Of a DNA stretch of 64,000 bases, positions 38,829-43,922 are shown piece after piece. The position numbers and the translations under genes were made by a program. Source of the stretch: Methanosphaera sp. ISO3-F5 (GTDB lineage: Archaea; Methanobacteriota; Methanobacteria; Methanobacteriales; Methanobacteriaceae). A model generated the notes under the pieces. That model had not been told where the DNA came from. It ran no database searches and worked only from the letters and a program-made list of their open reading frames with translations. The DNA lies in the NCBI RefSeq assembly GCF_034480035.2, contig NZ_CP118753.2:855001-919000 (forward strand), in the 5' to 3' direction. Numbering within the stretch: the first letter of the stretch is position 1; every line of letters begins with the position of its first letter.

Positions 38829-39395
38829 TTAACAGCAAATATTCCTAGTTGACCGTGCGGGTGATAAAGAAATTATATAAACATTAACAACATTGTCTAA
38901 ATATTTAAAACTTCTAATGAACATGCCACCATTTTTTAGAATAGTTTTTACAGAAGCAATATTGTCTTCATAACTGGACAATTGAACTTCAGATAATCCA
39001 ATCCGTTTAGCAAGAGATAATATCTCACTTAACATGGCACTAGCATAACCTTTTCCACGCTTGGAAGGTCGGACACTATATCCTATATGACCCCATTCTT
39101 TCAGAAAATCATTCAATTTATGTCTAAATGAGATAACACCAACAAATTCGTCTTCTTCAACAGCAAAGAAAATATCTGTCAAAACCCAATCGGGTGAAAC
39201 AGTATCTTTATTGGAATTCCTGTTCACATAATTTATCCATTCACTAAAATCAAGTTTGTCTAGTAGCTCGCCACCACTAATTGTTTCATTATTGGCTAAA
39301 AATTCCTCTTTAAACTTTAATATCTTCTTTTCATATAGTTTTGATGGTCTGATAAGGTAAATAAGATCACTCTCCGACGGTCTGTTTATATACAT
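38829..39395 (-). CDS. GNAT acetyltransferase
   Basis: 188 residues. The acetyl-CoA motif is GYSVRPSKRGKGYASAMLSEIL (about 105-126, R-G-K-G-Y-A), followed by LSSYEDNIASVKTILKNGG (the N-x-A-S pattern). The N-terminal SDLIYLIRPSKLYEKKILKFKEEFL is typical of the DUF-type GNATs that acetylate small molecules. The first 29 bases of the gene overlap the end of the AlgX-like gene upstream on the same strand, so they are co-transcribed and coupled. Confidence 0.88.
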   Translation of the reverse strand: MYINRPSESDLIYLIRPSKLYEKKILKFKEEFLANNETISGGELLDKLDFSEWINYVNRNSNKDTVSPDWVLTDIFFAVEEDEFVGVISFRHKLNDFLKEWGHIGYSVRPSKRGKGYASAMLSEILSLAKRIGLSEVQLSSYEDNIASVKTILKNGGMFIRSFKYLDNVVNVYIISLSPARSTRNICC

Positions 39396-41919
39396 TGCCC
39401 TTGGTGGTACTGGTAGGATCTAAAATAACCTTAACCCTATGTTTTCCATCAGTTATCGTATAAGACGCATCTAAAATGCCATTAATTTCCTTTTTATCAA
39501 TAACTGTATCATCAACAAGTATTTTGCAGGATGATACAACTGGGATATTCCTAAGATCATAGTATGCTATTTTGATGGATAACCGGTTATTGTCTAAAAT
39601 GCATTTCTCAACTTTTCTGGTTATTGGTATGACAAAATTGTCTTCTATTGAGACAAGTTGGTATTGTGCATTCTCAAGTGTACGTTCTCCCCTAATTTCA
39701 AGTACATCTGATGGTTCTAGCCATTCTACTAAATCCTTATTAAAATACCATAAATCCTGATACAAGAACACATCCCTGTAATATGATATCAGTGCTGGAA
39801 TTAATGGTTTAACTGAATCATCACAGAGTACTAACACTTTATTATCTGATATGCTGTTGTTGTTATGGTAGTATTTGCTTTTGGTTGTAGAGAACATTCT
39901 GTATTCTAATGGAATTTCTTCTTCAGCATATTCTCTTGCTTCTTCTTTAAGGGTTAATGACTTGGTATCTATTGCATAAAACTTGTCATGCAATTGTATT
40001 TCATTAGGGTATGACCAGCTGTGCTTAGTAAATAAGTTACCTCTATGCTTATCTTCAACTATATCTAATTTTGATAACATTTCATCATAATATTCTTCGA
40101 AAGTCTTGTTTTTATGCAGATTATTAAGTATGTATGCTACTATTTTAAGTCCTGCACACATAGAAACATTTGTATCATTAATCAGAAAATCCTCTTCGTC
40201 TATTATTTTAATTAAATCAACAAGGTGTTCTGTTAAACTGGTTATTTTACGTAATGGTGGATTATCAAAGGGTAAGAACCTGTTTAATACAACACTTTTG
40301 TCTGGTATTATGTAAATTCCATAATTAACGCCCATGTTTTCAAGATAACTTTTCTTGGAAGATAAACTTTCTAGGAATTTTTTCTGGTTGAACTTTGAAT
40401 TATACATCCTATCATAATGTTGTCTAATCTCATTAGAATTATCGTTAACAATAAAGAATGTGTTGTTCAATCCCTTAAATGTATGTTTCAGGTCTTTAAA
40501 TAGTGGTTCAAGACTTTCTTCATAAACAAAGTCCTGGACTACTTCCCTGTATTTGTATTTGCTTTTAATTTTAAATAGTAGTGTGTGTTCTCCATAATCA
40601 CAATTATTTAATGAATAGTTAAAGTTGTAATATAACTCACTGGATTCTTCTTCACGTATTAGAGTGTCATCAAGGAATGTTTTAATAATTGTTTTTACTG
40701 GTAACTGTCTATAATCCTTTATGAGAATTTGTGCATTTAAAGTGTTTTCATCAATATTAAACTTTTTCATCTGTGCAGATATTGGAAACTTAACTATGTA
40801 TTCATCATTTACTATTTGGTATTGTGGGTTATCAAGGAAGCGTTCGGTTCTAATTTCAAGAACGTCATCCGGTTTAAACCATTCAATTAGTTTATCATTG
40901 AAAAACCAGTGATCCCAATAAAAGAATACTTCCTTATAATAAGCAGTTAATGCATCCATCAGTACTAAAGTTGTGGAATCATGTAATATTACAGCACGCT
41001 TATCTGAGATGCTGTGTTCATTCCTGAAATAATAGGAGTCTCTTCTGGAAATATGTCTGAACACAGGTGGTATACTGTTCAAATTCACTTTTTCTACTGG
41101 AGTATTTAACTCTAACTTATCTGTAGTTATATACTTATTTTCATGAAACATTTCGTCTCGATCATAAGACCAGTTTTGGATATTGAAAAGATCACCTAAA
41201 TGTTCGTCTTTCTTAAAATGTGTACATTCATCTAACTGTTCTAGTATGATTTCGTGAGAAGTATTATGTAATGTTGATATGATATGGGCCACAATCTTGG
41301 GGGATGATCTGCTTGATATGTGGGTATCGTTTTTATAAAAGTCATTACTTGAAATAACATTACTTAAATCATGCAGGGTGTCCTTTAATTTATCTGTGTG
41401 GCGTTCTGGTGTATCTGTCTTGAATGGTAATTTGTTTCTAAGTATGATGCTCTTATCAGGTACAACAAATAGTCCATACTTTATGCCTTTCTTGTTAAGG
41501 TAATTTTTCTTTGTTTCTGTGCTGTGTCTGAATTTATTTATGTCAAGGTTGCATTCGTAGTTTTTATCGTAGTGTTGTCTGATTTCTTCGTTTCTATCAT
41601 TTATGAGGAAGAATGTGTTATCTTTTCCGAGTATTGTTTTCTTAAGATTTTTAAAGTAATCTTTTAAGTCTCTGTTAACTGATTTATATATGAATTTGTC
41701 CTTTGTTTCTGCTTTTATATTGAATTTGCTGATGTAAGTGTTTGAAATATCCTCTTTAATTTTTATTTTTTTATCATTGCTTTTTGTTATGATGCTATTG
41801 TTTAAGTATATGGTACATTCTTGGTTTGTATTGTTAATTATTGTGAATTCTAGTGTGTCTTCTTGTATTTCATTGTTTTCTATTTTTAGAGGATATTTGT
41901 TTAGGTTTTCTTGAGACAT
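39367..41919 (-). CDS. Tandem AlgX/AlgJ-like SGNH protein
   Basis: 850 residues with two copies of an AlgX-like unit (about 90-370 and 470-760) separated and ended by beta-rich linkers. Each unit has FFLINDRNEEIRQHYD or FFIVNDNSNEIRQHYD, Y-G-L/I-F/Y-V/I-V/I-P-D-K-S, a D-T-H or D-T-N site and a H/C-D-D-S near PDVLEIR-ER. Unit 1 keeps D203, H205 and S320 (numbered from 41934), unit 2 has D587, N589 and S707, so His is lost. AlgX/AlgJ relatives O-acetylate polysaccharides. No signal peptide is visible, which is odd for them. ATG 41919 is preferred over 41934 because GTGAT precedes it. Confidence 0.7.
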   Translation of the reverse strand: MSQENLNKYPLKIENNEIQEDTLEFTIINNTNQECTIYLNNSIITKSNDKKIKIKEDISNTYISKFNIKAETKDKFIYKSVNRDLKDYFKNLKKTILGKDNTFFLINDRNEEIRQHYDKNYECNLDINKFRHSTETKKNYLNKKGIKYGLFVVPDKSIILRNKLPFKTDTPERHTDKLKDTLHDLSNVISSNDFYKNDTHISSRSSPKIVAHIISTLHNTSHEIILEQLDECTHFKKDEHLGDLFNIQNWSYDRDEMFHENKYITTDKLELNTPVEKVNLNSIPPVFRHISRRDSYYFRNEHSISDKRAVILHDSTTLVLMDALTAYYKEVFFYWDHWFFNDKLIEWFKPDDVLEIRTERFLDNPQYQIVNDEYIVKFPISAQMKKFNIDENTLNAQILIKDYRQLPVKTIIKTFLDDTLIREEESSELYYNFNYSLNNCDYGEHTLLFKIKSKYKYREVVQDFVYEESLEPLFKDLKHTFKGLNNTFFIVNDNSNEIRQHYDRMYNSKFNQKKFLESLSSKKSYLENMGVNYGIYIIPDKSVVLNRFLPFDNPPLRKITSLTEHLVDLIKIIDEEDFLINDTNVSMCAGLKIVAYILNNLHKNKTFEEYYDEMLSKLDIVEDKHRGNLFTKHSWSYPNEIQLHDKFYAIDTKSLTLKEEAREYAEEEIPLEYRMFSTTKSKYYHNNNSISDNKVLVLCDDSVKPLIPALISYYRDVFLYQDLWYFNKDLVEWLEPSDVLEIRGERTLENAQYQLVSIEDNFVIPITRKVEKCILDNNRLSIKIAYYDLRNIPVVSSCKILVDDTVIDKKEINGILDASYTITDGKHRVKVILDPTSTTKGNVYKQTVGE

Positions 41920-42165
41920 AAAATCACATATCATTTATTATAGTATTATATCTATAATTTTTTTGTTAATAATTTTTAAGGTCAGATTTTGTTATTTTTT
42001 AATGCTTTTATTTTTTCTTATTTATTCCATTTTGGGTATTTTTTGAAGAATATATTATGTATTGCAGATATTTTTCCAGATTTTTATAAGTGTCTTTGAT
42101 ATTTTATGTTCGTATTGGAATAATTTTTTAGAAAAGTTTATATACTTTTTATTCCAAATAGTATA

Positions 42166-42495
42166 TTAGAAGTTTAATATCGGTATCATCTCAAAAAAAA
42201 ATAATGTTTATTAAACTTCGATAAGGGATGTAATTTCTATAGATTTCTTATTATTTAATAAAATGAAGCTCCTTAAAACTTTACATTACTAAAAAATCTA
42301 TGGGAATGGGGAACCACTAACAAAAAGTTAAATTATATTATATCCGGAAGAAATAGTGGTCAGAGGGAGAGATAAGTTCTTATTTAAACTAAAAAAAGAT
42401 TATGTTCATGTTTAATCATCTCTATGTGTTCATTTTAATTCATCTCTCAAACAGAACGGGTTTAAGAACTTATCCATTTTTTCTATTTTTTTTTA
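42166..42495 (+). ncRNA. Candidate 325-nt structured RNA with promoter and terminator
   Basis: A strong promoter box AAAAGTTTATATAC (42132-42145) sets the RNA start near 42166. Four stems follow: GAAGTTTAATA (42169-42179) with 42209-42219; ATAGATTT (42239-42246) with 42294-42301; ACCACT (42313-42318) with 42355-42360; GATAAGTTCTTA (42371-42382) with 42463-42474. A T-run (42477-42493) ends it. No reading frame is found. It lacks the conserved parts of RNase P RNA and SRP RNA I looked for. Confidence 0.5.
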
Positions 42496-42631: not shown

Positions 42632-43237
42632 ATGAAAGTACTACTAGTAAATGGAAGCACAAGAAAAGAAGGATGTACATACACAGCACTAAAAGAAATA
42701 GAAACAATCCTAAAAGAAGAAAACATAGAAACAGAAATATTCTGGATAGGAAATGATGCAGTATACGGGTGCATAGCATGCCACGCATGTAGAAAACTCG
42801 GAAAATGTGTATATGATGACGTGTCAAACAAACTAGCACAAAAAATGCAGGAAGCAGATGGAATAATACTTGGAAGCCCAGTATACTATGCAAACATAAA
42901 CGGATCCTTTGCAGCAGCATTAGACAAAGCATTCTACCAGAACAGCCAAGCATACGAAAACAAGATAGGAGCAGCAGTAGTAAGCTGTAGAAGAGGAGGA
43001 GCAGGACCATCATTTGACAGACTAAACAAATACTTCACAATCACAAGAATGCCAATAGCATCAGGACAATACTGGAATGCAGTACATGGAAACACACCAG
43101 AAGAAGTAAAACAAGACATTGAAGGAATGCAACAAATGAGAGACCTGGCACGCAGTATGGCATGGATGCTCAAAAACCTGACAAACACAGAAAAACCAGA
43201 AAGAGAACCAAAAACATTCATGAACTTCATACACTAA
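42632..43237 (+). CDS. NADPH-dependent FMN reductase / iron-sulfur flavoprotein, 1
   Basis: 201 residues with a flavodoxin fold: VLLVNGSTRKEGCTYTAL (FMN phosphate loop, about 3-20), then GCIACHACRKLGKCVYDD (Cys-rich, about 45-62), ILGSPVYYANINGSFAAALDKA (about 80-100) and SCRRGGAGPSFDRLNKYF. The C-x2-C-x2-C-x5-C motif suggests a 4Fe-4S cluster, as in archaeal iron-sulfur flavoproteins. AGGTGA lies 6 bases before ATG 42632; the earlier start in the frame is less likely. It is 22 bases from the next flavoprotein gene, so they form an operon. Confidence 0.88.
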   Translation: MKVLLVNGSTRKEGCTYTALKEIETILKEENIETEIFWIGNDAVYGCIACHACRKLGKCVYDDVSNKLAQKMQEADGIILGSPVYYANINGSFAAALDKAFYQNSQAYENKIGAAVVSCRRGGAGPSFDRLNKYFTITRMPIASGQYWNAVHGNTPEEVKQDIEGMQQMRDLARSMAWMLKNLTNTEKPEREPKTFMNFIH

Positions 43238-43259: not shown

Positions 43260-43922
43260 ATGAAAATATACCTGATAAATGGAAGTAACCGTAAAAAATA
43301 CAACACAGCCCAACTACTAGACGCAACAGCAGAAGGCATAACCGATGAACTAGAAAAACAAGACAAAGAAGCAGAATTAGAAATAATAAATCTTTACAAT
43401 CTAAATTATACAGGATGCAAATCCTGCCTTCACTGCAAAAAAATAGACGGCAAATACTATGGAACATGCCCAATAAAGGATGACCTTAACAAGTTACTCC
43501 CAAAACTATGGAACAGTGATGCAATAATATTCGGAAGCCCAATATACTTCGGAAATGTAACAGGACAAATGAGAAGCTTCCTGGAAAGACTAATCTTCCC
43601 AAAATATGTATACGGAGGAGAAACACTGGCAAATCCTAAACCAACAGCATTCATATACAACATGAATGTTACAGAAGAGTACAGTAACCAAATGTACGCA
43701 GACTCCATATATAACTCAGTGGAAGGATACATAGAATACGCATTCGGAAAACCATACTCACTAAAGTCCTATGACACATACCAGTTCAATGATTACTCAT
43801 TATACAAACACGGATTTAATGTGGAAGCAAAAGAAAAACAGAAAAAAGAACAATTCCCAAAAGATTTAGAAGAAGCATATAACATAGGTACACAGATAGT
43901 AAGGGATATATTTGGGAAGTAA
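43260..43922 (+). CDS. NADPH-dependent FMN reductase / iron-sulfur flavoprotein, 2
   Basis: 220 residues, same fold as the neighbour: YLINGSNRKKYNTAQLLDA start, then GCKSCLHCKKIDGKYYGTCPIKDDL (Cys motif, about 53-76), FGSPIYFGNVTGQMRSFLERL and YVYGGETLANPKPTAF. It should bind FMN and perhaps one Fe-S cluster and move electrons to an unknown acceptor. The GTGGAG site precedes the ATG. Both proteins likely act in the same anaerobic redox process. Confidence 0.85.
   Translation: MKIYLINGSNRKKYNTAQLLDATAEGITDELEKQDKEAELEIINLYNLNYTGCKSCLHCKKIDGKYYGTCPIKDDLNKLLPKLWNSDAIIFGSPIYFGNVTGQMRSFLERLIFPKYVYGGETLANPKPTAFIYNMNVTEEYSNQMYADSIYNSVEGYIEYAFGKPYSLKSYDTYQFNDYSLYKHGFNVEAKEKQKKEQFPKDLEEAYNIGTQIVRDIFGK

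Follow-up and report, generated by a model that had tools for sequence, protein, structure and literature searches.

A stretch of 64,000 nucleotides from the genome of a gut methanogen, a Methanosphaera (hereafter the window; G000:C1:855001-919000, in an assembly of 2 contigs and 2.68 Mb) carries what is almost certainly a real, uncatalogued gene for a structured RNA of about 325 nt. The RNA unites a new structured family, an array of anti-start repeats that varies in number, and an operator linking it with an apparent DNA-damage or stress regulon. Judged from these features, it has an even chance of being a trans-acting, stress-induced antisense RNA that would mask translation initiation regions at multiple sites.

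At the start of the window lie an archaeal LSU rRNA, of which the 3' end is present, and a 5S rRNA, and the RNA locus is flanked by a minus-strand gene for an 855-aa protein (39367-41934) and by two plus-strand genes for NADPH-dependent FMN reductases (42632-43237 and 43260-43922). Gene order around the locus is identical in G010, a Methanosphaera genome of the same species. Comparison of the two genomes showed 95% identity over positions 42115-42493 and far more divergence in the flanking DNA, with 0 to 6 differences per 40 bases inside this block and 9 to 20 in the bins just outside it. Most of the differences lie outside the helices, and one of them, G to A at 42265, turns a G-U pair of an apical stem into an A-U pair. 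The original prediction had proposed a structured RNA of unknown class at 42132-42495, preceded by a strong promoter, containing four serial stems, ending in a T-run and lacking a reading frame. Its extent closely matches the conserved block, except that the left edge of the block lies further out, at the operator half-site that starts at 42115. An archaeal TATA box (TTTATATA), four stems of 11, 10, 7 and 12 bp and the terminal T-run were all found (Table 1). No ORF of consequence lies in the region, the sole listed one being of 51 aa and extending beyond the T-run. Since the minimum free energy is no better than that of shuffled sequences (z = -0.78; 25 of 100 shuffles were as stable), fold stability provides no evidence; the case for a real RNA gene is made by conservation and covariation.

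We compared the window with the 4,227 families of Rfam 15, at the gathering threshold and then permissively at E ≤ 10. At the gathering threshold, the window yielded the LSU and 5S rRNAs only, and at E ≤ 10 the RNA region gave only chance matches, the best with E = 1.1. Neither archaeal RNase P RNA (RF00373) nor archaeal SRP RNA (RF01857) matched the region, and each is present as one full-length copy elsewhere in the genome (G000:C1:2436084-2436379, 152 bits, and G000:C1:784578-784893, 172 bits, respectively), so that the RNA is neither. The reservation that it might be a diverged housekeeping RNA is thus excluded for these two, and its patchy presence in the genus (5 of 20 genomes) argues against a housekeeping role. 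As to H/ACA or C/D guide RNAs, judged by Rfam match alone, the match was a chance one to SNORD101 (E = 8.8) on the opposite strand.

The homologs, in G000, G010, G019, G007 and G014, all lie beside FMN-reductase genes: the first reductase (FMN_red 1) follows the RNA on the same strand in the first four genomes, and the second (FMN_red 2) does so in G014. Within the genus, BLAST of the whole region returned, past G010, only promoter or AT-rich fragments and nothing full-length; the G019 and G007 homologs were found by reading the regions upstream of orthologous FMN reductases, and that of G014 by an operator search. A covariance model recovered the homologs with E values of 1e-13 to 1e-6, the model having been built from these same five sequences. 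Pattern and covariance-model searches of the 20 Methanosphaera genomes gave these five homologs and no further ones, and weaker covariance-model matches that were inspected turned out to be coding-like, CRISPR-like or devoid of the layout. Across 138 Methanobacteriaceae genomes, the exact core pattern was genuine in the five Methanosphaera only, inspected matches outside the genus lacking the layout; the family is apparently restricted to Methanosphaera. The homologs have in common the operator promoter, P2 with an invariant GCUCCUUAAA in its loop region, the GGGRA motif and the 3' arm, and a terminator or closing hairpin with a T-run was seen in the four looked at (G000, G010, G019 and G014). 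A CRISPR-like array with the repeat AAAAAATCAGACCATAGTGGAATTGAAAT was observed at about 1380-1700 of L163 (G013:C12).

Table 1. Features of the RNA locus, in window coordinates
Feature	Position	Strand	Basis and remarks
Operator left half-site, TTGGAATA	42115..42122	+	TGGAATA-N27-TATTCCA palindrome, also in other promoters of the genus
TATA box, TTTATATA, within operator	42137..42144	+	Sequence; similar position relative to right half-site in other operator promoters
Operator right half-site, TATTCCAA	42150..42157	+	TGGAATA-N27-TATTCCA palindrome
ncRNA	42162..42490	+	Conservation block; homologs in 5 genomes; start placed from TATA box (~42162-42170), end from T-run
P1 stem-loop, 11 bp	42169..42219 (42169-42179/42209-42219)	+	Fold; loop carries ATCATCTC at 42185-42192
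P2 helix, 10 bp	42237..42303 (42237-42246/42294-42303)	+	Compensatory changes, five genomes; CM R1
Apical stem inside P2	42264-42268/42279-42283	+	Compensatory changes; CM R1
Apical loop CUCCUUAAA(A), anti-Shine-Dalgarno-like	42269..42278	+	Complementarity peak to initiation regions
GGGRA motif after P2	42308..42313	+	In 5/5 homologs
P3 helix, 7 bp	42313..42360 (42313-42319/42354-42360)	+	Covariation
12-bp helix	42371..42474 (42371-42382/42463-42474)	+	Fold; presents repeat arm as 80-nt loop
Anti-initiation-region repeat 1, TTCATGTTTAATCATCTCT	42405..42423	+	Complementarity; one G010 difference, at last base 42423
Anti-initiation-region repeat 2, TTCATTTTAATTCATCTCT	42429..42447	+	Complementarity; identical in G010
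T-run, probable archaeal terminator	42475..42494	+	Sequence; kept in G010
FMN reductase, NADPH-dependent (FMN_red 1), downstream neighbour	42632..43237	+	Pfam PF03358; adjoins RNA in G000, G010, G019 and G007

Comparison of the five genomes revealed compensatory changes in P2. As the helices came out of register when the full core was aligned with MAFFT, modelling was confined to the P2 segment. In its alignment, limited to the small number of five sequences, 80% of the cells pair and both sides change in five pairs; covariation was 0.40 compared to 0.21 in shuffles, none of 500 shuffles reached it, and slid controls gave 0.01 to 0.29. The P2 arms, picked by eye, read CUAUAGAUUU/AAAUCUAUGG, CCACA/UGUGG, CACAACA/UGUUGUG and UUCACAU/AUGUGAA, and the CUCCUUAAA loop sequence is identical in all five genomes. 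P3 is kept in four genomes, G014 having no counterpart at the same place; its covarying arms, likewise picked by eye, are ACCACTA/TAGTGGT, AACTGCTG/CAGCAGTT and AACTATTAATATG/CATATTAATAGTT as DNA, and ACCACUA/UAGUGGU, AACUGCUG/CAGCAGUU and AACUAUUAAUAUG/CAUAUUAAUAGUU as RNA. P1 is poorly conserved beyond the species, and both arms of the 12-bp helix are unchanged in G010.

The 3' arm carries one to about ten degenerate tandem repeats of the form UUCAUUU-AAUCAUCUCU. G019 has a single repeat, G000 has two, G014 has about three, and G007 has about ten, spaced roughly 30 to 45 nt apart. A regular expression for the repeat found seven units in G007 compared to 0.78 in shuffles (none of 2,000 reached seven); it misses the units of G014 and G019, which were recognized by eye. 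Each repeat is complementary to the layout of start codon and Shine-Dalgarno (SD) sequence that is usual in the genus, although the repeats have AUCAUCUC where a perfect anti-SD would have AUCACCUC. We scanned 20-nt windows of the RNA against the initiation, upstream and coding stretches of 207 genes, sampled from about 400 kb plus the window, with gene starts picked by our own rule favoring SD motifs, which sharpens the contrast. Excess complementarity to initiation regions peaked at repeat 1 (-3.6 kcal/mol), repeat 2 (-3.2 kcal/mol) and the CUCCUU loop (-2.1 kcal/mol), and reached -1.8 kcal/mol at the AUCAUCUC of the P1 loop. When measured against coding sequence, nine repeats, drawn from four genomes, each did better than dinucleotide shuffles of themselves (z of -2.4 to -4.0; 0 to 1 of 100 shuffles better), and UUCAU lay in register on the start codon in 139 to 143 of the 207 duplexes (67 to 69%). 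Complementarity of the whole RNA was moderate, with a minimum of -3.56 compared to -2.37 (SD, 0.54) for shuffles, the best of which reached -4.19. RNase P RNA, SRP RNA and most intergenic controls scored lower than the RNA, a few intergenic strands coming close, and no individual target stood out among the 207 sampled genes, the neighboring FMN reductases being unexceptional too. The gene thus has the sequence signals of an anti-RBS small RNA, that is, a promoter and terminator of its own and no ORF, and it contains segments complementary to initiation regions beyond composition, the whole-RNA test being the weaker one.

The RNA promoter lies within the palindrome TGGAATA-N27-TATTCCA, of which the window holds just one and which is present at the RNA gene in all five genomes, G010 included. 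In our own count over the genus, made on palindromes with spacers of 10 to 36 and with near-duplicate genomes removed, 12 of about 56 sites had a spacer of exactly 27, compared to about two expected. The operator lies between genes for an XRE-Peptidase_M78 protein (fused or adjacent) and a divergent RNase_T exonuclease in G000, G019 and G009 (there at a contig edge), and in the same arrangement in G007 with one end base changed; the site at the G000 fusion is at C1:1180753-1180793 (L129 3254-3294). It is thus common to the regulator's own promoter (XRE-M78 or XRE; G000, G019 and G007), which makes the XRE(-M78) protein the likely binder of the operator. It is also found upstream of HIRAN genes (N27 in G007, N26 in G000 and G014), the gene after HIRAN encoding ARPP-1 in G000 and a protein similar to it in G007, and ahead of a gene for an SprT/YgjP-like metallopeptidase in G007. 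In the RNA, HIRAN and SprT-like promoters, a TATA-like stretch sits towards the gene-side half-site, which fixes the direction and points the RNA promoter to the plus strand. We infer that the RNA is transcribed from this strand, which is very probably the functional one. Close relatives of the regulator (at least 66% identity) occur in G000, G014, G007 and G019, all of which bear the RNA; G010, an incomplete assembly, gave no close XRE-M78 match. The RNA gene is probably a member of the operator regulon, and the operator shared by XRE-M78/exonuclease, HIRAN and SprT-like genes suggests an SOS-like regulon in Methanosphaera. A scan of GTDB contigs for the operator was swamped by chance matches. 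The operator was also seen before a gene for a protein of about 160 aa in G009 (L127 2367-2407) and before a relative in G019 (L131 3163-3203). In a related subclade, split XRE and M78 genes (G008:C1:80137-81175, G005:C127 and G017:C14) have a TGGAATAT half-site upstream, without the N27 palindrome, in genomes without the RNA.

We propose that an XRE-Peptidase_M78 (IrrE/ImmA-like) stress regulator would bind the operator and, by analogy with related systems, might be inactivated by proteolysis under stress. As the RNA promoter lies inside the operator, co-de-repression with DNA-damage-type genes is expected, and the RNA would be made together with the exonuclease, HIRAN plus ARPP-1 and SprT-like genes. 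It would consist of a folded 5' module (P2 with its CUCCUUAAA loop, GGGRA and P3) followed by the repeat arm, offered in the window's species as an 80-nt loop. Each repeat is predicted to pair with mRNA initiation regions, UUCAU on AUGAA and AUCAUCUCU on the SD stretch, and the CUCCUU loop may do so more weakly. Such pairing would hinder 30S binding and lower the translation of many mRNAs. Given repeats complementary to mRNA start signals and an operator common to probable DNA-damage genes, the RNA probably blocks protein synthesis under stress; from sequence, we infer regulator binding, pairing in the cell and translational repression.

The repeats could instead be binding sites for an RNA-binding protein that the RNA titrates, much as the GGA-motif repeats of CsrB and RsmZ bind CsrA, in which case the match to start regions would stem from composition or from overlapping mRNA sites of that protein. 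A widely varying number of short repeats is typical of titrating RNAs, and the repeats here are short and range from one in G019 and two in G000 to about ten in G007. However, they are the complement and not a copy of the initiation region, their order and spacing beat shuffles, and no known candidate protein presents itself, so that we regard titration as unlikely. It is somewhat unlikelier that the RNA acts on one or a few specific targets outside the sampled genes, general complementarity being incidental. Methanogen sRNA162 does have specific targets (PMC3510493) and our sample covered about 400 kb plus the window, but the degenerate repeats all fit a generic layout and not one gene.

Its place ahead of an FMN-reductase gene, on the same strand in every genome that carries it, would suit an attenuator or riboswitch acting in cis on that gene. 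Yet the conserved block stops some 140 nt short of the ATG, at the T-run, and is followed by a diverged spacer; many repeats intervene in the G007 homolog; and pairing with the start region of the adjacent FMN reductase was ordinary, at the 70th percentile. A cis-acting leader is therefore improbable. The reverse complement of the repeats, AGAGATGATTAAAATGAA, resembles an SD sequence plus start, as would be expected if the minus strand carried RBS-like sequences with tiny ORFs, or ribosome decoys. This we consider highly improbable, given that the ORFs arising from the repeats are of 2 to 37 aa and differ between genomes and that promoter asymmetry and the T-run indicate the plus strand.

To our knowledge, few archaeal small RNAs have a known mechanism or regulon. 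By analogy, the multi-site antisense RNA that we propose would be a mechanistic relative of LhrC, the csRNAs and sRNA162 and a member of none of these groups. LhrC1-5 of Listeria monocytogenes are stress induced and, through three redundant CU-rich sites placed in loops and in a single-stranded segment, bind the SD region and block translation (PMC4132741). Stress induction and redundant sites on the SD region are here predicted from sequence; LhrC is bacterial and multicopy, with UCCC motifs and LisRK control, whereas the Methanosphaera RNA is archaeal, its repeats complement the start codon too, and no sequence relation is claimed. The csRNAs of Streptococcus pneumoniae have sequences expected to pair with both RBS and AUG, as do the repeats, and act additively (PMC4507080, PMC3091779), but they are 87 to 151 nt long and encoded by five separate genes of the CiaRH regulon, in contrast to tandem repeats in one archaeal RNA under another operator. 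Methanosarcina mazei sRNA162 is likewise a methanogen RNA with stem-loops, confined to close relatives, in which a variable single-stranded linker masks the RBS (PMC3510493); it differs in its length of 191 nt, its specific targets, its regulon and the lack of described tandem anti-start repeats. CsrB and RsmZ are similar in having short repeated motifs, variable in number, in a noncoding RNA; they differ in that their motifs are GGA, whereas the repeats here read UUCAU/AUCUCU. For the regulator, the parallel is the IrrE/PprI-DdrO radiation-response regulon of Deinococcus, in which damage is followed by cleavage of DdrO, an XRE repressor, by IrrE-type proteases (PMC5552922, PMC10904395). Both systems have an XRE repressor, an IrrE-type metalloprotease and a promoter motif common to the regulon genes, whereas the putative one of Methanosphaera is archaeal, has the regulator and protease fused or adjacent, uses another operator and would include an RNA among its targets.

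Should the proposal hold, archaea would have in this RNA an equivalent of stress-induced multi-site antisense RNAs, and an SOS-like archaeal response would become testable. More tentatively, and with considerable doubt, an XRE-M78-controlled archaeal SOS-like regulon might use this expandable repeat-array RNA to stop translation globally during DNA damage, which would give the archaeal damage response an RNA-based arm of translational arrest. Beside the RNA locus, the 855-aa protein consists of two halves that are alike, without a Pfam match, and has relatives in most Methanosphaera genomes, some of them half-length or broken.
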